Shown here in pieces: positions 11,379-60,064 of a DNA stretch of 64,000 nt. The notes beneath the pieces were generated by a model. It saw only the letters and a list, made by a program, of their open reading frames with translations. It did no database searches and had not been told where the DNA came from. Made by a program: the position numbers and the translations under genes. The stretch's first letter is position 1. The number at the start of each line of letters is the position of its first letter. This DNA is from Prevotella sp. (GTDB lineage: Bacteria > Bacteroidota > Bacteroidia > Bacteroidales > Dysgonomonadaceae), in NCBI GenBank assembly GCA_031285625.1, contig JAITVV010000070.1, positions 1 through 64,000 of the forward strand. The letters run 5' to 3'.

Positions 11379-11388
11379 TTGAATAAAG

Positions 11389-38171: not shown

Positions 38172-39965
38172 TCAATTTTTAGCACCAGACCATCCCGGGT
38201 TTTGAACAAAGGTGTCTGGGTTTTTATTTACTTCTTCTTGATGGAAAGGCCACAAATAGTGCTTAGGAGCATCAAAAACACGGTTTTCTACCCAAGTCCG
38301 TTTAAAGAAATTATCATCACGTGCATTAATATCCATACCATGAACTGCCTTTACCTGATCGCTTATCTTCCAGCGGTTGCAGTCGAAATAGCGATGTGTT
38401 TCAAGAGCTAATTCTACCTGGCGTTCGTGTCTTATTCTCTCTCTCATTTGATCCTTCGTCAGTCCTGTTTTCAAATTAGGCAAGCCGGCCCGTGTACGGA
38501 TCATATTCATATATTTGTATACATCACTAACCGGCCCCGAAGCCTCGTTCAGTGCTTCCGCATAGTTTAGATATATTTCAGCCATACGGAAATAATTCCA
38601 TGTTTTTTTAACAAATATACCCTTTGGCAGATCTACACCATTCTCATCTAAAAACTTACGCATCAGATAACCGGTGGTTGAGTAGTCCGGGCCGCCCCCA
38701 CGTCCGTCAGGTGCTCCCATGCGGAAGTCGATTTGACGACCACGCCAATGAGAGCCTGTATATGTAACCGTTGCATAAAAGCGCGGCTCGCGTTCAACAA
38801 ACATATTAAATGTATTTTCAGGATAATATCCCTTCGGGTGTGCCTCAGCTTTAAAGCCTTCTTCCAAATATCCTGATTCAGGATTAATGATTGGGCTACC
38901 ATCGGCATTATATCCCAAAATCGGAGTTTTCCCATTAGCCATTTCATATGCATCCACGAGCTCCTGAGTAGGACATAAGCCTGACCAACCGCCTAGGCTG
39001 AGAGGTCCTGCTGCGCGCTCCATTTGATCGTAGAATTCCATATTCTTAGCAAAAATTATTTCCTTATTCCAGTGTTCTGTAAATAAGTAGCGATAGTTAT
39101 CCAATGGGTCGCCCGATTCGGCATAGTATAATCCATAACCGCCAGCCTCCATTTCTTCAATACATTTTTTTGTATAGTCGGCAGCTATTTTCCAACGTTC
39201 GGCATCATAAGCTGTTGGGAACAGGTGATTGCCCTCCTTATCGGTAAAATTTGCATAGTCTGGGTTACCATTCCACAAAGGGCTTGCCCTGTATAGCAAT
39301 AGTCTTGACTTCAGCGCCATAGCGGCAGCCTTAGTTGCACGTCCGTACCTGTCGGATCCCTCTTTCATATTTAGGTAAGTTGTAGCTCTGTCGCACTCAT
39401 TGGCTATAAAATCCACACATTGATCCAGCGGCATACGGATAGTTGTTTCCGCAAAATTGTCGTTGGTCTCGAATACCCTTTCATAGATATGCGTCGGTCC
39501 ATAGATGCGTATCAGTTGGAAGTGAAAAAAAGCGCGTAAAAAAATGGCTTCACCAATCCAACCCTGACGTTTTTGTTCGTCCATTGGTACTTTATCTACA
39601 TTGGCGAGAAATATATTGGTCTTTCTGATTCCCTGATAGGCCATATTAGAAACATCTCTTAATACATTATCCGGAGTCCACGAGCCATTATTCATGAAAT
39701 AGGCAAAACAGTTGGTGTAGGGATAATCCAGTTCATCGGCCGCGCCTACAAATGGGTTTTGACCCCAGTCGTTTGTAAAATTAAGTTCCCACGGAGTGTT
39801 CCAGTAGGTGGATGATAAAAATTGCTCCGCATAATATTCATTTGAAAATACGGCATCAAGATCCAGATCCTCATCGGGTGCTTTCTCCAGATAATCCTCA
39901 CAGGAAGTGCCCATTCCCAGTAATATCATCAGCAAAATGCTGTATAGTATACTATTACGTTTCAT
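38172..39965 (-). CDS. SusD/RagB family outer-membrane lipoprotein
   Basis: 597 residues with a lipoprotein signal (GMGTSC, Cys22) and the SusD hallmarks: an N-terminal EDYLEKAPDEDLDLD, TPR-like helices, and the C-terminal RHERQVELALETHRYFDCNRW stretch followed by a YLWPFHQEEVNKN end. It binds a glycan at the cell surface and lids the SusC partner. It lies 32 bases after susC on the same strand. Confidence 0.95.
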   Translation of the reverse strand: MKRNSILYSILLMILLGMGTSCEDYLEKAPDEDLDLDAVFSNEYYAEQFLSSTYWNTPWELNFTNDWGQNPFVGAADELDYPYTNCFAYFMNNGSWTPDNVLRDVSNMAYQGIRKTNIFLANVDKVPMDEQKRQGWIGEAIFLRAFFHFQLIRIYGPTHIYERVFETNDNFAETTIRMPLDQCVDFIANECDRATTYLNMKEGSDRYGRATKAAAMALKSRLLLYRASPLWNGNPDYANFTDKEGNHLFPTAYDAERWKIAADYTKKCIEEMEAGGYGLYYAESGDPLDNYRYLFTEHWNKEIIFAKNMEFYDQMERAAGPLSLGGWSGLCPTQELVDAYEMANGKTPILGYNADGSPIINPESGYLEEGFKAEAHPKGYYPENTFNMFVEREPRFYATVTYTGSHWRGRQIDFRMGAPDGRGGGPDYSTTGYLMRKFLDENGVDLPKGIFVKKTWNYFRMAEIYLNYAEALNEASGPVSDVYKYMNMIRTRAGLPNLKTGLTKDQMRERIRHERQVELALETHRYFDCNRWKISDQVKAVHGMDINARDDNFFKRTWVENRVFDAPKHYLWPFHQEEVNKNPDTFVQNPGWSGAKN

Positions 39966-39997
39966 ATCTATTATAAGTTTAGTTATTTTTGTTTTTC

Positions 39998-42900
39998 TTA
40001 AAAATCTACTGAAAGCCCGAAGTTGATTGCCCGTTGGATAGGATACCAGTTATCTGATTCCGGATCAATTGTGTTATTTATCTTATCCCAGGTAATAAGG
40101 TTAGTACCATTGGCAAATACCCTGATATTCTTCATTTTCAGTTTGCTCATCACTTTCTTTGGCAGGGTATAGCCTATCTCCATATTTTTCAGGCGAATAA
40201 AGCTGGCATCTTTTTGCCATACAGTCGAACGTCTCATGCTCTGTGGGTTATTTCCGTCTGTAACCACCGGGTACTTAGCCGAAGCAGCCGTTTCAGGTGT
40301 CCATCGGTTGTCGTAAACTTCATTAAATACGTTGAAGAATCCCATCCCCATTTCGAATGGATAAAAAGTGCGGCCTTCAAACCACAAACTTGTACGGGCA
40401 GATCCTGTAAAGAAAACACTGAAGTCGAATCCTTTATACTCAATAGTACCACCAAATCCAAAAACTAATTCCGGGTCACGGGTGTAACCGATCGCTGTCT
40501 GGTCATTACTATCGATAATACCATCACCATTCACATCCTTGTATTTCACATCACCCGGTATAGGACGTCCACCAAGCAAGGTCTGGTCGTACCAGTTGTC
40601 AATATCTTCTTCGGACTGGAAAAATCCTTCAGCTACAAGCCCGAACGGTTGGCCGATAGAATGGCCTATTTCGGATAAATTATCCCAAAGTGGTTTTGCC
40701 TTATCATTCTCTATTACCTCGTTGTGTGCATAGGTTATATTACCTCGGAAAGAATAGAAAAATCCGGAAGACGTACGATCTTTAAATTCCAACTGAGCAT
40801 CAAAACCACTGTTTTTGGCCTCACCCAAGTTACCCCATAAGGAACTTGCAGAAATGAAACCCGCACCAGTTGGCACTGACGAACGCTGCATTAGAATACC
40901 TTTTCTTCTTTCGTGGAAGAAATCGGTCTGCAAAGAGATACGATCTTTCCAAAGCCCGAGATCAAACCCAGCATTTGTTTTGACTGCTGTTTCCCAAGTC
41001 ACATCATTATATCCAATCTTAGTCTCTATTATGCCGGGCCACAAGACTTGCGACTCACCAAAATAAGCTCTCTGATCCGATCCACCATCCAGTTTTGTCA
41101 GATACAAGAAGCGGTCTCCACCAATCTGATCGTTACCAACTTCACCATGTGAAAATCTGAGTTTCAGATTGCTTACCACTTTATCGTTCCAAAACGATTC
41201 GCCGGAAACTAACCAGCCGACAGATATAGCAGGGAAAAAGCCCATCTGTTTTCCTTTCGGAAAGTTTTCAGAACCATTATAGCCAGCATTAAACTCGACG
41301 AAATATTTCAGTCCATAATCATAGGTAGCACGCATCGCAAGTCCCTGGCTACGATATGGCAAATTCAAAAGAGAGGTTCCGGCCGATAAGTCATCATACT
41401 GCCTGCGATTGAAGAGCAACATACCCGAAACGGTATGCATCTTGTTGAACGTGCGTTGGTAATTAGCCGATACATCCCAATAGACAGACTGATTTGTATT
41501 TCGTGTTGCATTGTTGAATCCCATGGCCTGAGCTTCGCGAACAATATTGTACTGGTCTTCACCAGATTCATCTTTTCCCAGATATTGTTTTATTCCGAAC
41601 GTTTTATATCGTAATGCTTTATTTGCATGATAATAATCGAACGAAAAATGTCCTTTTACCGACAAGCCTTTTGTTATCAGGCGCGACAAATCCCATGTAA
41701 GTCCGGCTGTAGACTGTATAGTCGTCAAACGTTCGTCGGAATACCCGGTCTCGGTAGACTGCCCCCATGGATTGGAACCGATATAGGTAGGTATGCCTGC
41801 TATACTGCCGTCGGGATTGGTTTTAGGGAAAATGATAGGGCCTGTATCGCGCAAACCGTCGAAGATACCGGCAGCACCAGCACCAGGATAAGTACGGTCG
41901 TCAATAATACCGCCAACACCTAATTCTACGATTAAATCTCTGCTCAGGTTTATATCCACATTGGAACGATAATTGTATCGCGCTACCCCTGCATTCGTAT
42001 TATGTTCATTAGCGGGATTAGTCCTATATATACCTGTTTGATTAGAATATCCAAGGTTTACATAGTAACGTACGATTTCACTACCGCCGGTTACACTCAG
42101 GTTATTTATCGTTTGAAATGAATTCGGTTTCAGAACTTCGTCTATCCAATCCACATTGGGATAGAGGTAAGGGTCGGATCCTGTGCGGAATTTCTCCAGC
42201 TCTTCGGATGTCCAGCGGGCAGGTTTGCCCACATTTGCCAATCCCTCGTTCATTAATGAGGCATATTGGTAACCGTCTATATAATTCCTTTGAGACAAGC
42301 TAGTAAGAATAGCCATCTCTGTACGGAACGAAACCTGAGGTTTTCCTTGTTTACCTCTCTTGGTGGTAATCAAGATAACCCCATTGGCCCCTTTTACCCC
42401 ATACACAGCTGTCGCTGAGGCATCTTTAAGCACTGATAAGCTTTCTACCTCGTCCGGGTTGACAGTACCTATAGAACGTTCTATACCATCTACCAATACC
42501 AACGGATTTTTTGCACCCCATGTTGCCATACCGCGGATATATATATTTGCAGCATCAAATCCCGGTTCACCGGATGTTTGTCGGGTAATAATCCCCGGCA
42601 TACGCCCCGACAGGGCATTGGGTAATGAAGTAGTTGCAGTTCGTTTAATTTCGGCGGGCGCAATATTCGAAATCGAGCCAACAACACTCACTTTCTTTTG
42701 GGTACCATAACCCACTACAACCACCTCATCCATCAGATTCTGGTCGCTGCTCATTGTTATGTTTATTTCTGTTCTTCCTCTTAATGGTTCTTCCGTCGTT
42801 ACCAATCCGACATAGCTGTAAACTATTATTGCATCGGTAGGCACATCAAACGAATATCGTCCTTCAGCATCGGTAAAAGTACCTACAACGGTACCTTTCA

Positions 42901-43117
42901 CCGTTACGGTCACTCCAGGTAGAATGTCTCCTAAGTCATCCTTTACAATCCCGGATACTTTTATTTTACCTCCATCATTATTCTGAGCATTTACCATTAC
43001 AGGCAATAATGCCAACGAAAATATGATGCAGAATATCACTTTATGCAGATCGTGCATCTTCCATCTTCCAATAAGTACATTGGTTCCGGACTTTCTGTGA
43101 GTAGTTCGTTTTTTCAT
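39998..43117 (-). CDS. SusC/RagA family TonB-linked outer-membrane transporter
   Basis: 1039 residues: signal peptide ending VNAQ, carboxypeptidase-regulatory-like domain (about 52-130: GIVKDDLGDILPGVTVTVKG), TonB box DEVVVVGYGTQKK, plug domain (IYIRGMATWGAKNPLVLVDG) and a long barrel. It imports oligosaccharides captured by SusD. The start at 43117 puts about 25 residues before the signal core; M21 (43057) is an alternative. It is divergent from ribokinase 1, with a 555-base control region containing two palindromes. Confidence 0.95.
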   Translation of the reverse strand: MKKRTTHRKSGTNVLIGRWKMHDLHKVIFCIIFSLALLPVMVNAQNNDGGKIKVSGIVKDDLGDILPGVTVTVKGTVVGTFTDAEGRYSFDVPTDAIIVYSYVGLVTTEEPLRGRTEINITMSSDQNLMDEVVVVGYGTQKKVSVVGSISNIAPAEIKRTATTSLPNALSGRMPGIITRQTSGEPGFDAANIYIRGMATWGAKNPLVLVDGIERSIGTVNPDEVESLSVLKDASATAVYGVKGANGVILITTKRGKQGKPQVSFRTEMAILTSLSQRNYIDGYQYASLMNEGLANVGKPARWTSEELEKFRTGSDPYLYPNVDWIDEVLKPNSFQTINNLSVTGGSEIVRYYVNLGYSNQTGIYRTNPANEHNTNAGVARYNYRSNVDINLSRDLIVELGVGGIIDDRTYPGAGAAGIFDGLRDTGPIIFPKTNPDGSIAGIPTYIGSNPWGQSTETGYSDERLTTIQSTAGLTWDLSRLITKGLSVKGHFSFDYYHANKALRYKTFGIKQYLGKDESGEDQYNIVREAQAMGFNNATRNTNQSVYWDVSANYQRTFNKMHTVSGMLLFNRRQYDDLSAGTSLLNLPYRSQGLAMRATYDYGLKYFVEFNAGYNGSENFPKGKQMGFFPAISVGWLVSGESFWNDKVVSNLKLRFSHGEVGNDQIGGDRFLYLTKLDGGSDQRAYFGESQVLWPGIIETKIGYNDVTWETAVKTNAGFDLGLWKDRISLQTDFFHERRKGILMQRSSVPTGAGFISASSLWGNLGEAKNSGFDAQLEFKDRTSSGFFYSFRGNITYAHNEVIENDKAKPLWDNLSEIGHSIGQPFGLVAEGFFQSEEDIDNWYDQTLLGGRPIPGDVKYKDVNGDGIIDSNDQTAIGYTRDPELVFGFGGTIEYKGFDFSVFFTGSARTSLWFEGRTFYPFEMGMGFFNVFNEVYDNRWTPETAASAKYPVVTDGNNPQSMRRSTVWQKDASFIRLKNMEIGYTLPKKVMSKLKMKNIRVFANGTNLITWDKINNTIDPESDNWYPIQRAINFGLSVDF

Positions 43118-43673: not shown

Positions 43674-43700
43674 ATGAAGACACGTATATCTAACAGTACT

Positions 43701-44609
43701 ATGAAAGCACCAAAAATTGTCGTAATCGGTAGTTCCAACACCGATATGATTGTAAAAGCAAAGCAGCTGCCTGTTCCCGGAGAAACTATTTTAGGGGAGA
43801 ATTTCATTATAAACCCCGGAGGTAAAGGTGCCAATCAGGCTATAGCTGCCAAAAGATTGGGGGGAGATATTACCTTTATAACTAAAGTGGGCAATGATCT
43901 TTTTGGGATGCAGGCGTTTGAAATTTATCGTTCAGAATATATAAATACCGGTTATGTATTTAAGGACCCGGATAATCCATCAGGTGTTGCACTTATCTCT
44001 GTAGATTCGATGGGCGAAAATTGTATAATCGTTGCCGGGGGATCAAACATGCGACTTTCACCGGAAGATATAGATAAAGCTGAAGAAGCTATTAAAGAAT
44101 GTGACTTGGTTCTGATACAACTGGAGATTCCATTGGAAACTGTGGAATACGCTGTAGATCTGGCTCATCGCCATGGTAAAAAGGTTATATTGAACCCTGC
44201 ACCTGCAACATCTTTAAGTAATGACCTATTAAAAAAGTTGTATGCCATTCTTCCTAATAGAATAGAGGCACAGATGCTTTCGGGAATCCAGGTTACAGAT
44301 GAAAAATCAGCTTATGAAGCCTCTCATGCTATAAGCAAAAAAGGAATTGATAATGTAGTGATTACACTCGGTAAAGCAGGTGCGTTTGTGAAAGAGGATG
44401 ATAACTATCGGATGATACCTGCAAAAGAAGTTGAAACAATTGATACAACCGGGGCAGGAGATGTTTTCTGTGGCGCTATCAGCGTATATTTATCTGAAGG
44501 ATATTCATTAATGGATTCTGTAGCATTTGCAAATATGGCTGCATCAATATCTGTAACCAGAATAGGTGCGCAAAGTGCGATTCCTTTCAGACGGGAAGTA
44601 TTTTTATAA
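43701..44609 (+). CDS. rbsK: Ribokinase (paralogue 1)
   Basis: 302 residues of the PfkB family: the sugar-binding GGKGANQAIAAKRLGG near the N-terminus and the C-terminal ATP and catalytic loop DTTGAGDVFCGA with the catalytic Asp. It would phosphorylate ribose or another pentose with ATP. I start at ATG 43701 because it aligns with the second ribokinase; ATG 43674 would add 9 residues. It converges with the MFS gene of the corrinoid operon, leaving only 4 bases between stops. A close paralogue is at 55196. Confidence 0.9.
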   Translation: MKAPKIVVIGSSNTDMIVKAKQLPVPGETILGENFIINPGGKGANQAIAAKRLGGDITFITKVGNDLFGMQAFEIYRSEYINTGYVFKDPDNPSGVALISVDSMGENCIIVAGGSNMRLSPEDIDKAEEAIKECDLVLIQLEIPLETVEYAVDLAHRHGKKVILNPAPATSLSNDLLKKLYAILPNRIEAQMLSGIQVTDEKSAYEASHAISKKGIDNVVITLGKAGAFVKEDDNYRMIPAKEVETIDTTGAGDVFCGAISVYLSEGYSLMDSVAFANMAASISVTRIGAQSAIPFRREVFL

Positions 44610-44613: not shown

Positions 44614-45768
44614 CTATGCTGTGGGCTTTTTTATCATAAATCCGCAAAAACATAGATATAAAGCACAAATAGCAATTATAATTACCGAACCTGTTTGGCT
44701 ACCTATCAGTCCGGTACATTTAGCCATCAAAGGAGAGGTAACTGCTCCTCCTGCAACACCAGTAAGTAATAATCCTGAAATCTCATTGTTTTTTTGCGGT
44801 TCGGTTTGTAATGCAATTGAAAAAAGAATGGAAAAGACACAAGAACATGTAAAGGCAATAATGACTACCAAGGCTATTATAGAAAAATAAGAATCAGCAA
44901 ATAGTAAACCGGTAACAGCCAATATAGCGATGATTATATTGATACGGTAATATTTTATTTCGGATACCCGGACTAACAAAAACATACCTAAAAACGATCC
45001 GAGACTTCTTGCTCCAAAATACCAACTGGTACCATACCCTGCCACCTCTTTATTTAGCCCAACTCTTTCCATCAAAATTTTAGGCGTTGCAATGTTCATT
45101 CCTACATCCAGCCCTACGATGCATAATATTCCCAGAAAGAGAAGTATGATTTTTTTATTCTTTAATAATTGCAATGATGGACCGATAGAGGTAACTTGTT
45201 CTTGAACAACTTCTTTATCAATCTGTGTGAAATAGAGCCAGACAAAAGAGATTAAAGAAATAACAGCATATACAGGGAATAATATTTCCCAAGTGCCGAA
45301 CTTTAAAGAAAAAAATCCGGCTAGCAAAGGTCCCATAAATGCTGAAAGTGCTTTTATCAACTGACCCGCTGTTAGTGTACTTGTAAGCATCTTACCCTGA
45401 ACAATATTCGATAGCAAAGGATTTAATGATACCTGCATAAAAGTATTTCCGATACCCAGCATAGCAAAGGCTATATAACATGTAACTGGTGTAAAACGGA
45501 CAAAGGGAATCACCATACCAATAAAAGTAACTACCATACTGATAAGTACAATGTTCTTACGTCCTATTTTATTCATAAATATGGCTGTTGGAATAGAAAA
45601 AATCAGGAACCAGAAGAAAACCATGGTTGGTAAAAATCCGGCCTGTGTCTCTGTCCAATCAAACTGTACTTTTGCATACGTAACCGATATTCCAATGATG
45701 TCGGCAAAGCCCATTACAAAAAAGCCAAAAAGCAACGGTATAAGTTTTACAGTAGTCTTGCTATCCAT
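44614..45768 (-). CDS. FucP-type MFS sugar transporter
   Basis: 384 residues, twelve helices, of the FucP/glucose-galactose MFS group (MGFADIIGISVTYAKVQF, FLPTMVFFWFLIFSIPTA, GNTFMQVSLNPLLSN). It would import a monosaccharide by proton symport. It is the last gene of the corrinoid operon, 14 bases after the activation-domain gene, which ties its substrate to the methyl-transfer module. Confidence 0.9.
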   Translation of the reverse strand: MDSKTTVKLIPLLFGFFVMGFADIIGISVTYAKVQFDWTETQAGFLPTMVFFWFLIFSIPTAIFMNKIGRKNIVLISMVVTFIGMVIPFVRFTPVTCYIAFAMLGIGNTFMQVSLNPLLSNIVQGKMLTSTLTAGQLIKALSAFMGPLLAGFFSLKFGTWEILFPVYAVISLISFVWLYFTQIDKEVVQEQVTSIGPSLQLLKNKKIILLFLGILCIVGLDVGMNIATPKILMERVGLNKEVAGYGTSWYFGARSLGSFLGMFLLVRVSEIKYYRINIIIAILAVTGLLFADSYFSIIALVVIIAFTCSCVFSILFSIALQTEPQKNNEISGLLLTGVAGGAVTSPLMAKCTGLIGSQTGSVIIIAICALYLCFCGFMIKKPTA

Positions 45769-45782
45769 TATAATTAAAGGTA

Positions 45783-46487
45783 TTATTTCCGTTTTTTTCT
45801 ATATATGCACATCTCCAATTCGCAAAGCTGACATCCATATGCAGTATATTTTACATTTTTTCCACAACCAATGACTCCACTGATCGACTTCGATGGAATC
45901 ATTAACGATGATGGTGTTAATTTTACACCGCAAGGATTGTCTGGAAGCATAGAAAATACCTTAGCTTGTTCGTTTGTATTCCAATTACAATAACCCGGGC
46001 TATAGCGATTTGTTATGTTCATTCCTCTTGTTTTCATTTCTTCAGAAATATGTTCCTGTATGATATCCATTGCTTTTTCTACAATAATATTTCCGAGTAT
46101 ATCTACGAAGTAAGCTTTAACAAGTTCATTGGTGTTGATATATTCCTTATACTGTTGGGTAATGCCATGGCCCGATGTACAGACGAAAACAATAAGTTGT
46201 TCCGCATTTCTTAATTGACGGGCAATTTTACTTCCACAATTAAATTCTAAGCTATCCGCAGAAAATTCTTTTTTTCCGATGGATACTGTATCTAAGATTC
46301 TGTACAGAGCACTGGCTTTTGAAATGTTTTTCCCGATAGAAATTACTTCTTCCATTTCGGAAAGGAATGGTTCATAAGAAGGCACGGAAGCGTCTGACGT
46401 CTCAAAAAAATCTTCGGGATTTATTTGAAGGCGTTCATATGAAATCTCACTTTCATAAATTTCTATGCTACTAATGTTTCCAGCCAT
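45783..46487 (-). CDS. Stand-alone methionine-synthase activation-domain-like protein
   Basis: 234 residues. The fold is the C-terminal activation domain of B12-dependent methionine synthase: TRGMNITNRYSPGYCNW corresponds to the SAM-binding RxSPGY, followed by PSKSISGVIGCGKNVKYTAY. The end has a C-x2-C-x4-C cluster (C219, C222, C227) followed by IYRKK, typical of the stand-alone family. In MetH this domain helps re-reduce and re-methylate inactive cob(II)alamin, so here it probably services the corrinoid protein encoded just upstream. The genes overlap by 25 bases, so translation is coupled. Confidence 0.85.
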   Translation of the reverse strand: MAGNISSIEIYESEISYERLQINPEDFFETSDASVPSYEPFLSEMEEVISIGKNISKASALYRILDTVSIGKKEFSADSLEFNCGSKIARQLRNAEQLIVFVCTSGHGITQQYKEYINTNELVKAYFVDILGNIIVEKAMDIIQEHISEEMKTRGMNITNRYSPGYCNWNTNEQAKVFSMLPDNPCGVKLTPSSLMIPSKSISGVIGCGKNVKYTAYGCQLCELEMCIYRKKRK

Positions 46488-47134
46488 TTTACAGATTCTT
46501 GCGGATCACGGCCAAAGCCATCTGCCCCGATCGAGGATGCATATTCGGCGCTTACGGGAGCTCCTCCTACTATGACTTTTGTTTGAGGTGATATTTCTTT
46601 GATTTTCTGAATAGCAGGGCCCATATTACTCATAGTGGTTGTTAACAGAGCAGAGATTCCAATAACGGCATCAGGATATTTTTGCAGTGTATCAATAAAC
46701 TTCTCACTGGAAACATCTACACCAAGGTCGATAACTTCCCATCCTGCACCCTCAATCATCATTCCGCATAAGTTTTTACCAATGTCGTGAAGGTCTCCCA
46801 GGATTGTCCCTAGAATGAAAGTTCCTTTACGCTTCACCTCTCCTGATACGAAATAAGGTTTAAGATGTGCCATAGAGGCATTCATCGCTCTTGCAGATAT
46901 TAGCATCTGAGGAACGAAAATTTTATTCTCAGTGAAACGTTGTCCTACAATATCCATTCCCGGCACTAAGGCCTCATTCATAATATCAGACGGACTGATT
47001 CCTGTATCTAAAGCCTCTTTTGTCAGTTCGTCGGCACCAGGCATCCCTTTCATTTCGGGAGGAAAAGGAGTTGCTGCATTGATCTTTCCGGCTACAATGC
47101 AACTTTTCAATTGGTTTAATATTTCATTATTCAT
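46463..47134 (-). CDS. Methyltransferase corrinoid protein (MtbC/MtaC-like)
   Basis: 223 residues: an N-terminal cap domain (B12-binding_2, about 1-90) and a Rossmann-like cobalamin-binding domain with GDLHDIGKN (D114-x-H116, the lower-axial His), SALLTTT and GGAPVS. It carries the methyl group on cobalamin between a substrate methyltransferase and an acceptor methyltransferase. It lies 22 bases after the UroD-fold methyltransferase at 47157 and overlaps the activation protein. No cobalamin riboswitch precedes the operon. Confidence 0.95.
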   Translation of the reverse strand: MNNEILNQLKSCIVAGKINAATPFPPEMKGMPGADELTKEALDTGISPSDIMNEALVPGMDIVGQRFTENKIFVPQMLISARAMNASMAHLKPYFVSGEVKRKGTFILGTILGDLHDIGKNLCGMMIEGAGWEVIDLGVDVSSEKFIDTLQKYPDAVIGISALLTTTMSNMGPAIQKIKEISPQTKVIVGGAPVSAEYASSIGADGFGRDPQESVKWLETLVA

Positions 47135-47156
47135 ATCATTCTGTTTTTGTTAGTTC

Positions 47157-48218
47157 TTATTGTCTTTCTCTTCTTCTTATTTCTTTTACAGCATCGGTCA
47201 TTGCTTTAAAACCTTCAATACTCATATAGTCAGGAATCGAATTGCCGGATCCCAACCCATATCCATTTGCGTTTTTCCTGAAGCGTACACCGTCCTCTAA
47301 TACTTTCTCGAAAACAACATCATAAGGATTAAGAATCAGGTAATTCATATCGAATCCACCAAAGAGGCCTATTTGATCAGAATATTTTTCAATCCATGTA
47401 TCAAAAGGACAAATCTGATCTTCATTAGAATGTTTGGCATCGATACCAAGTGCAAGGATATCGGGCATAATTTCGAAAATATTACCACAACAATGCAGGA
47501 GAAACTTTTTATTCACACTGTGGGCAACATCAACTACCCGTTTGTGTTGGGGCAGAACGAACTTCCTGAATGTATCAGGTTCGAGCATAGTAGCAGTTTT
47601 ATGCCCCATATCGTCACCCATTCTGTAAAAGACAAAAATGTCATCATACTCTTTTACCATCTTAGACCATAGTTCAACAAACAAATCTCCGATCCGAATA
47701 AAAAGATCGGCAAATAAGTCCGGATCGATATATTGCATTACACATAAATTCTCGTACCCTACCAGATCCTGTGATGTTTCAAATATACCATAACCACAAC
47801 CACCGTACGCTTTCATCCCTTTTGGCATAACTTTTCGTATAGCCTCTAAACGGGGAGTGTATGTCTCCCAGAATATGCGGGGGATATCTCCGAATGGATA
47901 CTTATTGAAATCGTCGCGCGTTTGAATAGGTCCAAGCATTCCACCCAGAATAGCTCCATGCCCCGGTAAAATCTCGCATATAGCTGCTTCATAGCTGAAA
48001 GCATCATATCCGTGATCTTTCCAAAAACCGATATATTTCCTGAAATAATCTTCAAGTTCAGAAGAGTTATTTGAACTGATTTCTATTTTTTCACCTAAGT
48101 ATTTTGAAACAAAGGGAGCATCAATGTTGTGTTCGTACAATGGCAGATAATCTGGTCTTTGGTTGTACATCACTTTCAGTATATTTGTATAGTCCGGCTG
48201 GAATTTTTGCTGACTCAT
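47157..48218 (-). CDS. UroD-fold corrinoid methyltransferase, paralogue 1
   Basis: 353 residues of the uroporphyrinogen-decarboxylase/MtaA superfamily. The zinc-site half-motif is LLHCCGN (H242, C243, C244). At the place of the distal Cys the sequence is GLGSGNSIPDY, with no Cys. It could be the substrate:corrinoid methyltransferase, with changed metal ligands. It is next to the corrinoid protein (22 bases) and follows UroD paralogue 2. A palindromic repeat lies in its upstream gap (48246-48258). Confidence 0.88.
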   Translation of the reverse strand: MSQQKFQPDYTNILKVMYNQRPDYLPLYEHNIDAPFVSKYLGEKIEISSNNSSELEDYFRKYIGFWKDHGYDAFSYEAAICEILPGHGAILGGMLGPIQTRDDFNKYPFGDIPRIFWETYTPRLEAIRKVMPKGMKAYGGCGYGIFETSQDLVGYENLCVMQYIDPDLFADLFIRIGDLFVELWSKMVKEYDDIFVFYRMGDDMGHKTATMLEPDTFRKFVLPQHKRVVDVAHSVNKKFLLHCCGNIFEIMPDILALGIDAKHSNEDQICPFDTWIEKYSDQIGLFGGFDMNYLILNPYDVVFEKVLEDGVRFRKNANGYGLGSGNSIPDYMSIEGFKAMTDAVKEIRRRERQ

Positions 48219-48245
48219 TATGATAAAATATTAGTGTATTAATTA

Positions 48246-48258
48246 AGGTCACAGACCT
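48246..48258 (-). repeat. Palindromic intergenic repeat, copy 5 (reverse orientation)
   Basis: On the minus strand AGGTC-TGT-GACCT, with AAAGTAATAAAT before it. It lies 28 bases upstream of the UroD paralogue 1 start, inside the operon. Confidence 0.75.
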
Positions 48259-48269
48259 ATTTATTACTT

Positions 48270-49274
48270 TTACCTACTATGTGATTGGTTGTACTTCTTC
48301 ACTGCATCAAAAAAAGCCAAAATATTTTCTTCAGGAATAAAAGGTGGAATGTCACACCCCGATGAAATAACAAAGTTTTTGTATAAGGATGTTTTCTCCA
48401 GTAATTCACTTGTGATACTTTGTACCTGCTCTCTGGAACCTTGTTTGAAAGTTACTACCGGGTCGATATTACCCATAACCAAAATATCGGAAGGACATTC
48501 TTTCAGCACCTGTAATATGTCTATTTTATTACCAAAATGAAGTGCCTTCGCTCCACTTTTTATCATAGCATCCGTACATTGGCCTGTATTTCCGCAATTA
48601 TGCAGAATAACCATGAAGTCTTCGTCTTGTACCGCTTCTACGATTTTTTTTACAAATTCGGTGGAATAAGCCTGACAATCGTCATTTTGTAAAAGACCGG
48701 CTGCCGGTTCGGCTATTATTACCCCTGCTGTACCTGTATCTTTCAGTGTCTGGCAATATTGAATAAGGAAAGATGTGCATTTTTCCAAAAGTAACAGTAT
48801 TGTTTCAGGTTCGAGATAAATTGCCATCATTATTTCCGACATATCGAATAACCTTCCTGCAAGCGAGTATGGCCCTATACAGCCCGACAAAACAGGTTTG
48901 TCCTTTATGTTTTCGGCGGCTAGCTTATTTGCCGAGAGATATGCAGGGATCCTGGCTGCTGAAAGTCCGGGTACCTGAAGATTCTCTACATCATTCATAT
49001 TTGCCACTAAGCGGCCTATGACAGATGGAACGTCGTCCTCAGGAAAAATAATTTCGGCACCGAATGCCTCTGCTTCAACAGTCAGATCCATTATAACTGT
49101 ACATGCCGATGAATCATATTTCTCCGAAAGTGCTTTTATGGCTTTGTAATGTACGGTTCCATCCGTTACTGCATTCTTTACACTTTCTCCGATTATTTCC
49201 ATCCCGGGATTTGTCATTATGGGTATAGCTAACCGTGCCGTACTTTCTATTATATCATTTACGGATAATTTCAT
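48270..49274 (-). CDS. UroD-fold corrinoid methyltransferase, paralogue 2 (complete Zn site)
   Basis: 334 residues. The MtaA/MtbA-type zinc site is complete: H225-x-C227 in LHNCGN, then C307 in ISSGCDIPP, 80 residues on. This matches the methylcobalamin:acceptor methyltransferases (MT2) whose zinc activates a thiol or folate-like acceptor. It would take the methyl group from the corrinoid protein. 51 bases before UroD paralogue 1. Confidence 0.9.
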   Translation of the reverse strand: MKLSVNDIIESTARLAIPIMTNPGMEIIGESVKNAVTDGTVHYKAIKALSEKYDSSACTVIMDLTVEAEAFGAEIIFPEDDVPSVIGRLVANMNDVENLQVPGLSAARIPAYLSANKLAAENIKDKPVLSGCIGPYSLAGRLFDMSEIMMAIYLEPETILLLLEKCTSFLIQYCQTLKDTGTAGVIIAEPAAGLLQNDDCQAYSTEFVKKIVEAVQDEDFMVILHNCGNTGQCTDAMIKSGAKALHFGNKIDILQVLKECPSDILVMGNIDPVVTFKQGSREQVQSITSELLEKTSLYKNFVISSGCDIPPFIPEENILAFFDAVKKYNQSHSR

Positions 49275-49359
49275 ATATAATCTATTTTATTATGGTTTCA
49301 GGTTGTTTAAAGAAGTTTTGCAATTTATTGCGGTTCATTGCAAAACTTCTTATGGTCAA

Positions 49360-51912
49360 TTAATAACTACCTGTTAACCTCTGAGGAGTATTCAAATATT
49401 TATTTACAATAGCATCTTCCCTTGCTTTAGGATTATTCATAATTGGCATAGGGATGTAATATGAATCGGTAATATCCCTTACTTTTTCTACCGATGGTTT
49501 TCCTTTGTCGAAGGTCAGGTCAAATTCAAAAGTCATTTCACCTGGTGAGTCTACACAGAAGTTAACCACCCATAAATTATTATATAACATGCCGAATAAT
49601 TCATTCACATTTTCAGGTGCATTTTGCAATTTTTTACCCATGCTATGTCCGCCAAAGTTGACTATTGGAATATCACCCGACGACCAGATACGTGTACCGT
49701 CCTGTGAGTCATATTTTACCCAGCTATCTATTACAAAGAAGTCTTTACATGAGTTCGGAATCTGGTCTTTATATAATTCGTAAGGCATACCACCATTTGT
49801 TGCAACAGGTTGCTTGCATCCTTTTGGGAAAGGGAACCTGGCATAAAATACTTCCGGTGCGATAGAAGAAATCCTGTCAAAGAAAACATTTACTTTTGCC
49901 CGTGGTATTTCCTTAAATATTTCAACTTCCCTGCGCATGCTTTTCAGTCGTGGATGTTCCATATCCTGAGAAATAATCCATGAATACGGTGTTTCCCTTA
50001 CCTTGGCTTTATTTTGGGGTTTAGCCCAATTGATTTCTGTTATATCTTCCCATTTTTTGAGCCGCTTCTCGTCTTCCCAATGCATATAAACATCACCTTG
50101 CGAGTAGCGATCCATATCATTTACATTGACTACCATAAAGTCTGCCAGTCCTTCTGTAAAGAGAGGTTCGTCCATACCTTTCCATTTCGCAGAAGTTATC
50201 CAGTTGTTCTTATCGAATGTAAGTTCAGGCAAATCAGTTTTTACTTCTGTTGCTTTTACTTCAGATGTTTCCAGCATAAAGTGGGTATATGAATTAGCAG
50301 GCATATTATTTATCCAGAACCATGCCTGAGTGCCGCCCGGAACGGCTTCGCGGCTTGTATTTAAGTTCTCATCCACTACCCAACGCCAAACATAATCGCC
50401 TTCTTTGAATAAAGGATATGTTTCATTGGTTTTTACATCTCGTACCGATTTGTAGTCCACTTCCCTGAAACCAACTACATCCAGTTTTACCCAGCCTGTA
50501 TAAGAAGCATTGGATACATTTGAAACATACAGGCCTTCGTCCATATCGGTAAATTTATTACGAACTAACTGGCCCAGTAAGTATTTACTCCTTTCCCATG
50601 GACGATAGGCAAAACTGCCTTTTTCGTTCAATTGTCCCAGGGTATATAAACTGTAAGGGTAATCAGATGTTTCGTTAGAACCATATGTATGTTCAAAATA
50701 ACGGCATAATAAACGGTTGATATCTTTCAATTCTGTTTTAGCTCCATCATTCAATGTGCCCCATAACGGCGATTTTATGGCTTTGGTATTATATACTCCA
50801 CGACGGGCCACTTGCATTTCGCGTGGCATGGATGCACCTCCAAACGCCCACCAGTCCTGCCATTCACCTTCATAGGTTTCCAATTTGTCTCCAACTTCTT
50901 TTTCGATATTCTTCATGGCTTCGCCTGCTGTTTTCATTCTAAGCACCGGCTTAAGTCCCATTTCATTCCATTTGTTGATAAATGTAAGTAGCTGAGGCAT
51001 AGGGCCATCATTATCGCATCGCCATTCGTTAGTAAATGTCAGCGTAAGGAATGGATAGTCATAACCTTTATCACGCAAATCCTTCAGCCTTTTGATACAT
51101 ACTTCGTGCGATTCACGCATCGATGCTTCGTCGGTAAGAAGTATATTTCCGTTTCGTGGCCATGTTGTTTGTGTATTGGCATATTCACGTTGCTGTAAAC
51201 GCCACTCACGTTCGGCAAAAAAGAGGTAACCTTGCCAGTATGGATATCCAGACCAAACCAATAGTTTACGGCTATCAGGCATTTTCCACCAGAATGCGCC
51301 TGGCTGCTCTACCGGAGAACCTCCCCAATGCTGATTGATTCCCATCCACACATAGTTTATATCCCTGTCCAGCAGTTTTGTTGCTGCTATGCGGGGAAAA
51401 CCATTTACATCATGTTGCATTCCCACTTTTATATCCAGCTGGGTACGTATTTCTTCAGGTATCCAGTTCAGCATCTCATCCCATTGCTCCGAACTGGCAT
51501 AAGGATGTATATGGAAAGGCATGGCATTGATACCGATCTGCTTATTTTTTATCATTTTCAGCATATCATTTCTACGCTTTTCAGTAGTCTCTACCCACCA
51601 AGAATAAAATGGGTCGAGTGCTTCAACTGTCCATACAAAACGACTTTCAGGTTTTTCGTTTTGTGACTGTAAGGCTAAATCCAAAGCTACATCTATAAAC
51701 CTTTTATGCAAGTCGATATCAACAAGCGCATGATCGGTATAACCATAGTCGGTATGTGTTACATGCACAATATCTATGTATTTAAAATCCAGAGTATCTT
51801 TTCCTTCAATGCTGCTATCGCTTTCGGCTATATTCTCAGTTTTAGTGTTACAACTGAAGAATAGAAATAGAAATAATAAGCCGCTCAGCAGTTTACTAAT
51901 AGTAGATTTCAT
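49360..51912 (-). CDS. GH38-like lipoprotein (DUF5054)
   Basis: 850 residues with a lipoprotein signal (LFLFFSC, Cys21), so anchored outside the cytoplasm. The N-terminal domain resembles GH38/57-type (beta/alpha) mannosidases: H53-T-D55 in VTHTDYGYTD fits the first metal ligands, and D168 in MQHDVNGFPR sits where the GH38 nucleophile is found. The rest matches what I recall as DUF5054, with no demonstrated activity. It is encoded inside the corrinoid operon, so its product likely feeds that module. Confidence 0.8.
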   Translation of the reverse strand: MKSTISKLLSGLLFLFLFFSCNTKTENIAESDSSIEGKDTLDFKYIDIVHVTHTDYGYTDHALVDIDLHKRFIDVALDLALQSQNEKPESRFVWTVEALDPFYSWWVETTEKRRNDMLKMIKNKQIGINAMPFHIHPYASSEQWDEMLNWIPEEIRTQLDIKVGMQHDVNGFPRIAATKLLDRDINYVWMGINQHWGGSPVEQPGAFWWKMPDSRKLLVWSGYPYWQGYLFFAEREWRLQQREYANTQTTWPRNGNILLTDEASMRESHEVCIKRLKDLRDKGYDYPFLTLTFTNEWRCDNDGPMPQLLTFINKWNEMGLKPVLRMKTAGEAMKNIEKEVGDKLETYEGEWQDWWAFGGASMPREMQVARRGVYNTKAIKSPLWGTLNDGAKTELKDINRLLCRYFEHTYGSNETSDYPYSLYTLGQLNEKGSFAYRPWERSKYLLGQLVRNKFTDMDEGLYVSNVSNASYTGWVKLDVVGFREVDYKSVRDVKTNETYPLFKEGDYVWRWVVDENLNTSREAVPGGTQAWFWINNMPANSYTHFMLETSEVKATEVKTDLPELTFDKNNWITSAKWKGMDEPLFTEGLADFMVVNVNDMDRYSQGDVYMHWEDEKRLKKWEDITEINWAKPQNKAKVRETPYSWIISQDMEHPRLKSMRREVEIFKEIPRAKVNVFFDRISSIAPEVFYARFPFPKGCKQPVATNGGMPYELYKDQIPNSCKDFFVIDSWVKYDSQDGTRIWSSGDIPIVNFGGHSMGKKLQNAPENVNELFGMLYNNLWVVNFCVDSPGEMTFEFDLTFDKGKPSVEKVRDITDSYYIPMPIMNNPKAREDAIVNKYLNTPQRLTGSY

Positions 51913-51955
51913 CGTATTTTAATTTAAGTTATTATTAAGCTAAAATTTTCAAAAT

Positions 51956-53011
51956 TCAGTACACGCCATATTGCTTGACAGTTTCAATAAGGCAAAGCAC
52001 ATTTTCAGTCGGAATATTATCGTGGATACTGTGATCGGTGGAAATGATATATCCGCCACCGGATGCAGCCTCATTCAGACATTCCAAAACTTCATTCTTC
52101 ACATCATCGCTGTTAGCCGATTCCATTGTCACCTTGTTGTTCACATTCCCTATCGGGGTGATTCTTCCTTTGTATGTATCTTTCACTTTCTTCAAATCCA
52201 TACCTGCAGCCCTTTCTACAGGGTGTAAGGCATTAATGCCGCAATCAGCCAGATCGTCGATCACGTCCCATATCTGTCCGTCGTTATGCATAATAAAAGG
52301 TAATCCATATGCTTTTACAGCTTGTACCAGACGTTTGAAATAAGGTATGAAAAATTCCCTGAATTGTTCGGGTGCTATCAATAATCCATTTGTCCCACCC
52401 CAATCGTCAGATATCTGTACACAATCTACACCGCCTTCTTTGACAGCCAGTTCTAAAGCCTCCAGTGCCCATTTCAGGTATGCTTCATTGATTTCGTGAA
52501 TAAGGTCAGGATCGGTAAACATGTTTATTGAAAAAGTTTCCATATCCATAATATACCATGAAAGCATTGTAAAAGGTCCTAATAAACCAAGAACAACAGC
52601 TAAATCTGATTCGTTAGCAGCCAGTACATCTTTCAAGATACGTGTCCGGTATGGTGTATCTACTTCAGGTAATTTGTAATTTTCCCAATCTTCGCGGCAT
52701 TTTACCGGGGCACCGATCTGAGCAATAATAGGCCAGCCGTTTTTCCGGTATGTTACTTCCCATTCATCCTTATAGATCTCATCCTTTTCGTGCGGAGTTT
52801 CTTCTATTCCACAAAAACCGTTTATAGGAGTCCATATAGTATCGATACCCAATTTTGCAGCCAGTTCTACCTGAGCTTTTCCATCATACAATATGGTATT
52901 ATATCCCAATAATTCTTTTTGTAGTTTCAGGCTAAATAAATGTTCGTGAATAGGAACCCTGTCTGGTGTTCCCCCGGTGAGGGCAGTTAAAAATCTTTCA
53001 CGTGATGTCAT
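51956..53011 (-). CDS. UroD-fold methyltransferase, paralogue 3 (no cysteine ligands)
   Basis: 351 residues from the ATG at 53011 (MTSRERFLTALTGG is the usual UroD-superfamily opening; the open frame to 53050 has no motif). The zinc-site Cys is replaced: H242-x-D244 in MHNDGQI, and STDHSIHDNIP has no distal Cys. SDDWGGTNG lies mid-protein. This pattern suggests a substrate-specific methyltransferase (MT1) with different ligands. First gene of the minus-strand operon; a TATATTTG -7 box at 53128-53135 lies upstream. Confidence 0.87.
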   Translation of the reverse strand: MTSRERFLTALTGGTPDRVPIHEHLFSLKLQKELLGYNTILYDGKAQVELAAKLGIDTIWTPINGFCGIEETPHEKDEIYKDEWEVTYRKNGWPIIAQIGAPVKCREDWENYKLPEVDTPYRTRILKDVLAANESDLAVVLGLLGPFTMLSWYIMDMETFSINMFTDPDLIHEINEAYLKWALEALELAVKEGGVDCVQISDDWGGTNGLLIAPEQFREFFIPYFKRLVQAVKAYGLPFIMHNDGQIWDVIDDLADCGINALHPVERAAGMDLKKVKDTYKGRITPIGNVNNKVTMESANSDDVKNEVLECLNEAASGGGYIISTDHSIHDNIPTENVLCLIETVKQYGVY

Positions 53012-53372
53012 GGTGTTCCGATTAATTTGGTTACAATTTATAGGTATCAAATCTTAAGTTCAGCTAGCATTTTTATAAGATTTTCCGGTAGTGTATTTCA
53101 TTAGCTAGCCAGCAAAAAAACTCTAAGCAAATATAAATTCTTTACTACCCTTAAATTCACCAAATATTACCTAAAACAATAATCTCAAACTATTAAAAAA
53201 TCATATATAATGTTTTTAATACCTAATTATCAATTAGTTATATTTTGTTTTTTTATTCATTATTATAATTATTAAGAAAATGGCCAGTAGATAAGTAATT
53301 ATTTTATTTTCTACTTTTACAAAAAGCAAAGAACGCTCCCCATCATTTTTTCCAACAATAAATTTTTATAAA
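53012..53372. promoter_or_regulatory. Divergent control region of corrinoid operon and regulator
   Basis: It holds a minus-strand TATATTTG (53128-53135), about 115 bases before the UroD3 start. AT-rich, no ORF. I searched both strands for B12-box-like sequence and found none, so no cobalamin riboswitch is evident. Confidence 0.45.
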
Positions 53373-54926
53373 ATGAAAAAGATAGATTCTGTTATTTCAT
53401 TGTTGCATTCGTTATCCAAATCGGAGAAGAAGCATATTACTTTACATGTCTTGAGTGGAAATGAAAACAAAGATTATTTGATTATTTACGATCTTATAAT
53501 CAATCAGAAAATATATGATACACAGAGTATCAAAATGGAATTTACGAAATCAAAACCAACCGGTTCTTTTGAGATTGCAGTTCATTATTTATATGATAAA
53601 ATACTCAATTCTCTATTGATGCTTCGTAAAAAGAAGGACATAGTGTATGATTTGTTTCAAATAATAAGTAAAGTGAGGATGTTGTACGAGCGTTCCTTAT
53701 TTCATGAATGCTTCGAGCTGCTTTCCGAAGCGATTGAAATGGCCCGGAAATACCAATATTACGAAATATTGATAATTGCCTTAAGGCTTGAGTTGGAATA
53801 TTTGTTCCGCCTCAATTTTCCGGACATATCGGAACAGGAACTATATCATAGGCATTATGAGCTGGGTGATGCTATAAAAAACATTCGAAATATCACGGAA
53901 CAATCTTCTCTTCATGATACATTGAAATACCGGTTGATATATAAAGGAAGCATTCGTACAGATAAACAAAAGCGAGAAATGAATGACCTGATGGTTAGCG
54001 AATTTTATATTGCCGCATCTACAGAAAGTAAAAACAATTTTGAAATAAAAAAGAACCACCAGTTGTTTCAATCAAGCTATTTGATGGGTGTCGGTGATTT
54101 CAATTCAGCTTTAGAAACTCTGAAAGAACTAAATAGGGTCTTCGAAAATAATCCGGAGCACTGGGCAAATCCTCCAATCTACTATATGTCGGTATTGGAA
54201 GGTATATTGAGTAGCTTACGCTTCTATGGCAACTATGAAGAAATGGGATATTATGTCGAAAAACTGAAAATTTTAGCTGAATCGTCATCGGTAGAATTTA
54301 AAGTAAATACCTTATGTCTGGTTTTCCAATATGAATTGTTTCCTTGGCTAGATAAAGGTGATTATGAGAAATGTAAGGAGATTATAGAAGAGTATGATGA
54401 ACGTTTGTTCAGTAAAGAAAGCTGGTTAAATCCTATCCGGCTCAGTGAATTAATATTGTATACCTCGATAGTACATATTGGAATGAAAGAATTTTCTAAG
54501 GCAAAGAAACGTTTGAATAGTCTTTTATTTGATCGGTTTATGGATTATTTACCTATTAAAAAGATAATCCGCCTCATGCGTCTGATTGTTTATTATGAAT
54601 TGGGTGATTTTGATTTGATCAGATTTGAAACACGTTCTATCAAAAGAGGGATGACCAATAAAAAAGAGCCACATTACAGAACAGAGCATATGTTGCTTTG
54701 GTTTCTTAATAATGAAAATCTGCCTGTCTTTAACAAAGACAAAGATGATTTGTGGAAAAAAATTTCTAATCAACTTACCGAATGGCAGGATAACCGTTAT
54801 GAGCGCCAGATATTATATTTATTTGATTTTACTGCATGGATAGAAGCTAAAATCTTTAAGAAGCCACTTTCTACAATAATGGAAAAAAATTTTGAAGAAA
54901 AAATGAAAAATAATACACAGCATTAA
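53373..54926 (+). CDS. Helical-repeat protein, probable locus regulator
   Basis: 517 residues, predicted cytoplasmic, nearly all alpha-helical with TPR-like repeats (YERSLFHECFELLSEAIEMA, GMKEFSKAKKRLNSLLF). I see no classic DNA-binding domain. It lies between the corrinoid operon and the second ribokinase. A regulator of this size near ribokinases is known for the Bacteroides ribose locus (RbsR, from memory), and the KKIDSVISLLHSLSKSEKK opening looks like that type. Regulator is inference. Confidence 0.6.
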   Translation: MKKIDSVISLLHSLSKSEKKHITLHVLSGNENKDYLIIYDLIINQKIYDTQSIKMEFTKSKPTGSFEIAVHYLYDKILNSLLMLRKKKDIVYDLFQIISKVRMLYERSLFHECFELLSEAIEMARKYQYYEILIIALRLELEYLFRLNFPDISEQELYHRHYELGDAIKNIRNITEQSSLHDTLKYRLIYKGSIRTDKQKREMNDLMVSEFYIAASTESKNNFEIKKNHQLFQSSYLMGVGDFNSALETLKELNRVFENNPEHWANPPIYYMSVLEGILSSLRFYGNYEEMGYYVEKLKILAESSSVEFKVNTLCLVFQYELFPWLDKGDYEKCKEIIEEYDERLFSKESWLNPIRLSELILYTSIVHIGMKEFSKAKKRLNSLLFDRFMDYLPIKKIIRLMRLIVYYELGDFDLIRFETRSIKRGMTNKKEPHYRTEHMLLWFLNNENLPVFNKDKDDLWKKISNQLTEWQDNRYERQILYLFDFTAWIEAKIFKKPLSTIMEKNFEEKMKNNTQH

Positions 54927-55195: not shown

Positions 55196-56092
55196 ATGAA
55201 AAAAATAGTTGTTATAGGAAGTAGTAATACAGATATGGTAATAAAGTCTGATAAATTGCCAAACCCGGGCGAAACAATCCTGGGTGGAGAATTTTTGCTA
55301 AATCCCGGAGGTAAAGGGGCTAATCAGGCAGTAACTGCTGCAAGACTTGGTGGAAAAGTCACATTTATTGCAAAAATAGGCAGTGATGCATTTGGCAAAA
55401 ATTCAATAAATCTATATTCGTCCGAAGGTATAAATACCGAATTTATTTTTTCTGATCCGGAAAAGCCGTCAGGTGTAGCATTAATAAATGTAAATGAAAG
55501 TGGTGAGAATTGTATTGTAGTAGCTCCGGGTGCTAATGGCTTATTATCGGTAGAAGATATAGAAAAAGCGAAATATGAGATTGAATCTGCCGATATCTTA
55601 TTAATGCAACTGGAAATCCCTCTATCTGTGGTTGAGTATTCCGCTAAGCTGGCATACGAAAAAGGTATAAAGGTTATTCTGAATCCGGCTCCGGCCAATG
55701 AACTTTCTAACTCCTTACTAAAATGTCTGTATATTATAACACCAAATAAGAATGAAGCGGAGGCACTCTCGGGAATAAAAATAACTGATATCGAAAGTGC
55801 AAAAAGTGCAGCTGCAGTAATAAGAGAAAAAGGAGTTGACACAGTAATAATTACGATGGGCGAATTAGGCGCTATCATTTGTGATGACCAACTTCATCAA
55901 ATCCCTGCCGTAAACGTAAAAACAGTGGATACAACAGCTGCGGGTGATGTATTTAATGGAGCTTTATCAGTGGCGCTGGCTGAAGATAAAAGCATAGTGG
56001 ATGCAGTAATATTTGCCTGTAAATGTGCTGCGCTGTCGGTGACCAAACTAGGTGCCCAGTCATCTATTCCCTACCGGAACAATATTGTTTGA
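55196..56092 (+). CDS. rbsK: Ribokinase (paralogue 2)
   Basis: 298 residues, PfkB family, about half identical by eye to the ribokinase at 43701. GGKGANQAVTAARLGG is intact, but the catalytic loop reads DTTAAGDVF, with Ala for the first Gly of GAGD; the catalytic Asp remains. It would phosphorylate a pentose. It starts a plus-strand operon with the GH13-like enzyme 35 bases downstream. Confidence 0.92.
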   Translation: MKKIVVIGSSNTDMVIKSDKLPNPGETILGGEFLLNPGGKGANQAVTAARLGGKVTFIAKIGSDAFGKNSINLYSSEGINTEFIFSDPEKPSGVALINVNESGENCIVVAPGANGLLSVEDIEKAKYEIESADILLMQLEIPLSVVEYSAKLAYEKGIKVILNPAPANELSNSLLKCLYIITPNKNEAEALSGIKITDIESAKSAAAVIREKGVDTVIITMGELGAIICDDQLHQIPAVNVKTVDTTAAGDVFNGALSVALAEDKSIVDAVIFACKCAALSVTKLGAQSSIPYRNNIV

Positions 56093-56127
56093 AATAATAT
56101 AAACCTATAAATCAAATACAAAATTAT

Positions 56128-58764: not shown

Positions 58765-58788
58765 AGACTTTAATAATGAAGTCGTCTC

Positions 58789-58940: not shown

Positions 58941-59013
58941 AAGATGAATTCAATAGAATATCTAATTGAAGTAAAACACTATCTATATTGTTAACAATTA
59001 AATAGAATAGAAT

Positions 59014-60024: not shown

Positions 60025-60064
60025 TTAATCTATAGGATTAGGATTTGAATTAGGTGTTTAAAGT

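Follow-up and report, generated by a model that had tools for sequence, protein, structure and literature searches.

The closest described counterparts of the system analysed here are the corrinoid methyl-transfer systems with UroD-type enzymes (MtaA/MtbA, VdmB/OdmB), the type 1 mlp clusters (PMC10418091), the cobalamin-dependent demethylation of glycine betaine, which is coupled to methionine synthesis (PMC12478193), and the aerobic P450 demethylation of 6-O-methyl-galactose by marine bacteria (PMC10033563), the last being the one enzymatic sugar demethylation that we have met in print. In this work we analysed a seven-gene operon on the minus strand at positions 44614–53011 of a 64,000-nucleotide stretch of Prevotella sp. 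DNA (assembly GCA_031285625.1, contig JAITVV010000070.1, positions 1 to 64,000), called the window hereafter. We see an even chance that this operon encodes an anaerobic, B12-dependent corrinoid system for the O-demethylation of O-methylated sugars. In transcription order its genes are:

51956–53011, minus strand: UroDc, second presumed substrate-side UroD-fold methyltransferase (URO-D, 132.4 bits)
49360–51912, minus strand: lipoprotein resembling GH38-type alpha-mannosidases (GH38N, 36.0 bits; cut-off 25)
48270–49274, minus strand: UroDa, MtaA/MtbA-like UroD, presumed corrinoid-to-thiol methyltransferase (URO-D, 185.1 bits)
47157–48218, minus strand: UroDb, presumed substrate-side UroD-fold methyltransferase (URO-D, 70.4 bits)
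46463–47134, minus strand: COR, stand-alone corrinoid protein, the methyl carrier (B12-binding, 85.8 bits; B12-binding_2, 74.5 bits)
45783–46487, minus strand: ACT, protein resembling the MetH activation domain, with four conserved cysteines and a possible role in corrinoid reactivation (Met_synt_B12, 42.5 bits)
44614–45768, minus strand: MFS transporter, probable sugar importer (MFS_1, 106.6 bits)

An earlier note on this DNA, made from the sequence alone, had described seven minus-strand genes with gaps of 85 bases or less and one overlapping pair, forming a corrinoid methyl-transfer set. Open reading frame calls return all seven genes where it had placed them, the gaps calculated from the coordinates are 43, 85, 51, 22, −25 (the overlap) and 14 bases in transcription order, and the gene identities are backed by Pfam, as all seven proteins, with the UroDs, the corrinoid protein and the MetH-activation-like protein among them, exceed the curated cut-off of some family. 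An alternative start of UroDc, a TTG upstream at 53050, is possible. Named subfamilies were considered and rejected, as no NCBIfam corrinoid, UroD or transporter model reaches its curated cut-off with an operon protein; the top model for the MFS protein, gluP, scores 48.7 bits, under its cut-off of 202.55. The best PDB match of COR is 1y80 (E 2.2e-46), and its sequence carries GDLHDIG, which fits DxHxxG, presumably the motif of stand-alone corrinoid proteins. Five UroD matches were found in the draft genome, which has 4.84 Mb in 96 contigs at 94% completeness; three belong to the operon and the other two to a further corrinoid cluster, on contig C95.

The operon shares with the UroD-type corrinoid systems its UroD folds, its stand-alone corrinoid protein and a putative thiol-side enzyme with a His-Cys-Cys site, and the model of UroDb is nearest to 4ay7; unlike them, it also has H-C-N and H-D-H UroDs, a glycosidase and an MFS transporter, and neither a RACE activase nor a dedicated folate methyltransferase was found in its draft genome. 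Type 1 mlp clusters likewise combine several UroDs with a corrinoid protein and no folate methyltransferase, but there nearly all Mlp proteins have H-C-C (one of three UroDs here) and a Ram/RACE protein is present, which the operon lacks; these clusters are in addition linked to sulfur and selenium genes (PMC10418091). The glycine betaine system offers a parallel in a corrinoid protein common to demethylation and methionine synthesis, and differs in its pfam06253 methyltransferase, pterin-binding partner, RamA and N-methyl substrate (PMC12478193). The P450 route takes a methyl ether off a sugar during glycan degradation, as we propose for the operon, but it is oxidative, releases formaldehyde and uses a cytochrome P450 instead of B12 (PMC10033563). 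Finally, the genes that flank the operon are those of a ribose-utilisation (rus) locus, with a RusR-type protein, ribokinases and SusCD, whereas corrinoid genes are missing from all seven other rus regions examined.

Zinc sites and the proposed pathway

The zinc sites were compared in an alignment of 121 UroDs of at least 300 amino acids, taken from the window and the loci examined, with the MtaA-type structure 4ay7 as the reference for UroDa. The site of UroDa is His-Cys-Cys (H225, C227, C307), while the corresponding columns read H242-C244-N326 in UroDb and His-Asp-His in UroDc. H-C-N is found in 54 of the 121 proteins and corresponds to the UroDb family, some genes being counted twice, and H-C-C in 38 (UroDa and others); the rarer classes, possibly misaligned, are H-C-H (11), H-D-gap (9), H-D-H (4, UroDc among them), H-D-N (2) and one each of H-D-G, H-D-D and E-M-C. 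The predicted model of UroDb (pLDDT 94.6) has 4ay7 as its nearest PDB structure (TM score 0.74/0.77). According to Kountz and Balskus, H-C-C sites belong to S-methyltransferases, and in O-methyltransferases carboxylates or non-ligands occupy the cysteine positions (PMC10418091). Under this rule, the residues in the zinc-site columns suggest that the donor met by UroDb and UroDc is an O-methyl compound and that UroDa works on a thiol. A methylthio-sugar, one of the candidate substrates of the earlier note, loses ground accordingly, as two of the three UroDs are without His-Cys-Cys and fit O-methyl substrates instead.

A carbohydrate-active enzyme gene lies within the operon itself, the GH38 gene, with gaps of 43 and 85 bases to the adjoining genes. 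The lipoprotein that it encodes has an LFFSC lipobox (by eye), and residues H53, D55, D168 and H408, which we take to be the zinc and nucleophile residues after Golgi mannosidase II, do not vary among the 12 sequences aligned. Its predicted structure is weak (mean pLDDT 63.9), so that its 40 best PDB matches, which are GH38-type alpha-mannosidases, are supportive only.

Reactivation of the corrinoid may differ from that of the systems cited above. A search with PF14574 detected no RACE activase in the draft genome, with control matches only in Methanosarcina acetivorans, and a RACE protein encoded elsewhere in the genome was rejected on this ground. ACT aligns with the MetH activation domain over the C-terminal half of that domain, and also with the Thermotoga protein 1j6r, which carries the name methionine synthase in its record, with the RxSPGY stretch included. 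In an alignment of 12 hand-chosen sequences (the window protein and 11 homologues), Cys167, Cys219 and Cys222 are fully conserved and Cys227 almost fully, in the motifs SPGYC and YxCxxC...C. The MetH protein of the same genome has no cysteine between its corresponding RPAVGY site and the stop codon, and 1j6r has a glycine at the position aligned with Cys167. The ACT cysteines could form a metal or iron–sulfur site for electron delivery, and ACT may replace RACE as a corrinoid reactivation protein, possibly of a different type.

As for the methyl acceptor, two pterin-binding proteins were found in the genome, one of 302 amino acids (probably FolP) and MetH, and no dedicated folate methyltransferase was found among those of the draft genome, which makes a thiol the likelier acceptor. 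Folate was rejected for this reason, and the idea that the methyl group is banked on a C1 carrier, put forward in the earlier note, finds no support as far as folate is concerned.

From the gene content, the zinc-site residues and the co-occurrence with corrinoid proteins and glycosidases, all of which were seen directly, we infer the direction of methyl transfer, the substrate, the acceptor and the reactivation as follows. The GH38 lipoprotein, outside the cytoplasm, would free or uncover an O-methylated hexose or deoxyhexose, which the MFS protein would import; UroDb and UroDc would each take a methyl group from its ether and load it onto Co(I) of COR, and the presence of two substrate-side UroDs could reflect two methyl positions or two sugars. 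UroDa would then move the methyl group from methyl-Co(III) onto a thiol, for which homocysteine is the simplest candidate and would yield methionine, and ACT, with its four conserved cysteines, would rescue oxidised Co(II).

Co-occurrence with glycosidase and corrinoid protein genes

A scan of an 84,980-species collection with two peptide patterns returned 56 UroDb loci, a lower bound; they are mostly from Bacteroidota, with others from Verrucomicrobiota, one Planctomycete, one Spirochaete and Clostridia. In 48 of the 56 loci, 0.685 Mb of DNA hold 20 GH38 genes (in 12 of the 48), compared with 196 in the 195.9 Mb of the 46 genomes that bear these loci, which gives an expectation of 0.69 and an excess of about 29-fold, loci being scored with our own profiles and genomes with Pfam. 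Any of 12 glycoside hydrolase (GH) families was found in 27 of 56 UroDb loci versus 6 of 40 control regions (p 9.5e-4), and GH38 in 16 of 56 versus 2 of 40 (p 0.003), the controls being regions of 20 kb at set, non-random positions on UroDa-bearing contigs, most of them not from UroDb genomes. Short UroDb contigs bias this comparison against the test set, and the same gene stands under two handles in the two test sets in two cases (L075/L116, L077/L133). Among 84 same-strand close neighbours of UroDb we counted GH38N (8), MFS_1 (7), GH92 (4), Sugar_tr (4), GH29 (3), melibiase (3), GH130 (2), SASA (2) and GDSL esterase type (2); these 84 are drawn from 106, after leaving out ten COR or ACT neighbours, nine from three Clostridia loci and three small open reading frames. 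Of the Clostridia loci, L147 has UroDb near a GH38 gene, and L148 has it beside a GH43 gene and near a rhamnosidase-like gene. Pentoses, also proposed in the earlier note, are not favoured over mannose or a 6-deoxyhexose, to judge by the neighbouring GH38, GH92, GH29 and GH95 genes.

A stand-alone corrinoid protein was found in 35 of 42 UroDb genomes versus 23 of 119 genomes of the order (Fisher p 1.9e-13, a test that ignores kinship), the 119 being drawn evenly from the order and including at least three that carry UroDb. These counts were read from tables as open frames of 210–285 amino acids with E <=1e-13; a corrinoid protein of 293 amino acids (genome G111) was left out, and would bring the second count to 24 of 119. 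A UroDa-clade gene is present in eight of the nine UroDb loci that have COR.

UroDb is scarce nearby, as 150 relatives yielded a single full match, of 64% and from a different family, besides a few fragments. Two metagenome-assembled genomes (MAGs) have UroDb at 81–82% identity with ArgRS at only 62–63%, which makes horizontal transfer likely; in Parabacteroides gordonii the values are 78% and 76%. UroDc relatives of at least 67% identity occur in 3 of 60 loci (P. gordonii, a Bacteroidales MAG and Draconibacterium aestuarii), and all three also hold UroDb and GH38. The P. gordonii locus reads LacI regulator, GH38, GH38, UroDb, COR, UroDc, a GH95-like gene, a beta-helix protein with a GH120 insert, a small protein, an H-C-C UroD, another small protein and GH38.

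Several observations weigh against a sugar demethylation system. The UroDa loci, which include the window operon and the C95 cluster, have any of the 12 GH families in 9 of 23 cases versus 6 of 40 controls (p 0.063), and in 7 of 21 when the two clusters of the genome itself are removed. SusC/D genes are found in 12 of 56 UroDb loci (p 0.60) and 8 of 23 UroDa loci (p 0.11) versus 6 of 40 controls. None of the 12 families is found in 29 of 56 UroDb loci, many of them on short contigs, or in 14 of 23 UroDa loci, and the GH profiles were seeded from the test loci, a bias towards the test set. Only 9 of 56 UroDb loci have COR in the DNA examined, and a stand-alone corrinoid protein was not found in 6 of 42 UroDb genomes and is doubtful in one more, many of the genomes being drafts. 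The zinc-site rule is taken over from other families, and we know of no described ligand set with asparagine in third place.

The tie between the corrinoid set and glycan capture asserted in the earlier note thus holds in part: UroDb relatives lie beside glycosidases above background and controls, and linkage to SusC/D at the level of the families is not significant, so that SusC/D linkage was dropped as chief evidence. Homologous loci without glycan genes, which that note would have counted against it, exist in the proportions given above, next to those with them; no link to amino acids or methylamines was noticed among them, and no test was aimed at one.

Methylated sugars are also present in mollusc, nematode and bacterial glycans. 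O-methyl mannose is a component of moss and green-algal N-glycans (PMC8773788), and 2-O-methyl fucose is the target of GH139 in the breakdown of plant RG-II (PMC12282258), in the available text of which the word 'demethyl' is absent. O-methyl mannose or an O-methyl deoxyhexose is our better guess, compared with a pentose or a methylthio-sugar, any single sugar being less probable than not as the substrate. In titles and abstract beginnings of the open-access literature, we found no description of corrinoid demethylation of sugars, or of such a system in a polysaccharide-utilisation locus (PUL), among the matches listed. The position of UroDb relatives by sugar-cleaving genes in anaerobe-rich groups suggests an undescribed, oxygen-free sugar demethylation. 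The combined proposal is held tentatively, as a somewhat doubtful whole: a widespread B12 route in anaerobes in which H-C-N and H-D-H UroDs would demethylate mannose or deoxyhexoses freed by GH38, GH92, GH29 and GH95, an H-C-C UroD would pass the methyl group to a thiol and on to methionine, and a cysteine-rich ACT-type protein, not RACE, would reactivate the corrinoid. If true, gut and sediment anaerobes would gain another way to use methylated sugars, the use of glycans would be linked with methyl metabolism and the supply of B12, and it would become possible to test directly what happens to methyl sugars in anoxic habitats, for example in P. gordonii or D. aestuarii.

Alternative readings and the flanking ribose locus

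A methoxyaromatic methyl donor, such as a ferulate-type group of the plant cell wall with an indirect glycan linkage, is unlikely, if the foremost of the rivals. OdmB and VdmB are phenolic O-demethylases of the UroD superfamily (PMC10418091), and UroDb has two SASA and two GDSL esterase-type neighbours and a few xylan-type genes near it (GH43 in L148); yet mannosidase and fucosidase families are the commonest glycosidases by UroDb, the best named model of the importer is a hexose transporter (below cut-off), and OdmC is a RACE activase, whereas none was found in this draft genome.

That the operon is a general methyl-supply system, or one for a small methyl-polyol such as methylinositol, with glycan genes loosely gathered around it, is quite unlikely. 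It would agree with UroDa genes standing without other corrinoid genes in the regions examined of L078, L079, L089, L090 and L091, and with the Gfo/Idh and isomerase-like genes beside the C95 cluster, but the glycosidase gene inside the operon and the excess of GH38 near UroDb argue against it.

The genes around the operon bear on the next alternative:

38172–43117, minus strand: SusD and SusC of the flanking locus (Pfam)
43674–44609, plus strand: ribokinase (TIGR02152, 381.3 bits, above cut-off)
53373–54926, plus strand: RusR-type protein (NF058569, BT2802 ribose-utilisation family, 625.5 bits; cut-off 550)
55196–63598, plus strand: second PfkB kinase, amylase-domain protein, ureide-permease-type transporter and two GH172 (DUF2961) proteins (Pfam)

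SusC, SusD, the two ribokinases (PfkB), the two GH172 enzymes and the GH13-like enzyme (with an alpha-amylase domain) listed in the earlier note are all there; unrecognised in it, this is a ribose-utilisation locus, because a RusR-type protein and a ribokinase score above cut-off and SusCD and further genes accompany them. RusR relatives (E <=1e-30) are present in 7 of 61 genomes, this one included. Seven other rus regions, one of only 5.9 kb, cover all eight other RusR matches, and none has a BLAST match to the UroD, COR or ACT proteins of this genome. In this genome, therefore, the corrinoid operon forms a module of its own within the rus locus, and the adjoining SusCD, from which a ribokinase separates it, is weak evidence on its substrate; the claim that the corrinoid set is tied to the PUL next to it finds no support for the same reason. 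A service of the operon to the rus locus, by taking the methyl group off an O-methyl pentose or off 2-O-methylribose derived from RNA, would suit its position between the ribokinase gene and the RusR-type gene, from which it diverges; it is decidedly unlikely, since the other rus regions lack corrinoid genes and it is GH38, and not genes for ribose, that recurs with UroDb and UroDc, and the operon as a part of the ribose locus was rejected.

Least probable of all is a methylthio-type substrate handled by an mlp-like system, for which the His-Cys-Cys site of UroDa, the gene set shared with mlp clusters and the ribose handled by the flanking locus would speak, against which stand the single His-Cys-Cys UroD of three (near-universal in mlp clusters, PMC10418091), the RACE activase not found in the draft genome, the other rus regions without the corrinoid set and the glycosidases adjoining UroDb relatives.

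Beyond the operon, the rus locus (window 36542–63598) also encodes an ADP-ribosylglycohydrolase, and its amylase-domain protein, next to the two GH172, has three F5/8 type C stretches. On contig C95, the other corrinoid cluster (L039, C95:63000–82000, positions 389–18945) contains GH16, SusC, SusD, AraC, an H-C-H UroD, COR, ACT, UroDa (60%), Gfo/Idh, a 3-keto-disaccharide hydrolase and GH97, a content that suggests another system for methylated glycans, possibly one that involves 3-keto chemistry. Elsewhere, some UroDa-type sets adjoin GH29, GH106, GH31, GH141 or an Fkp-like fucose enzyme. In L087 (8804–13247) and L088 (8847–13290), ACT and UroDa lie directly by an Fkp-like fucose kinase/pyrophosphorylase (Pfam, L087 copy), and the 20 kb examined of these two loci contain nothing that matches COR. 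A UroD-like protein in L071 (6094–7158) and L072 (6845–7909), matched only by our own profile (E 3e-27 and 1e-14) and, in the L071 copy, by no Pfam family, is a candidate substrate-side enzyme near an SSF symporter, GH31 and UroDa. The UroDb relative beside GH43 in L148 (6828–7877), from a Clostridia-type MAG, is split into two open reading frames, possibly by a sequencing frameshift. In the window, no riboswitch reached the Rfam gathering score and no tRNA was found. About 120 bases ahead of the first operon gene, on the minus strand at 53128–53135, we noticed by eye TATATTTG, which resembles what we take to be the Bacteroides -7 promoter element (TAnnTTTG).

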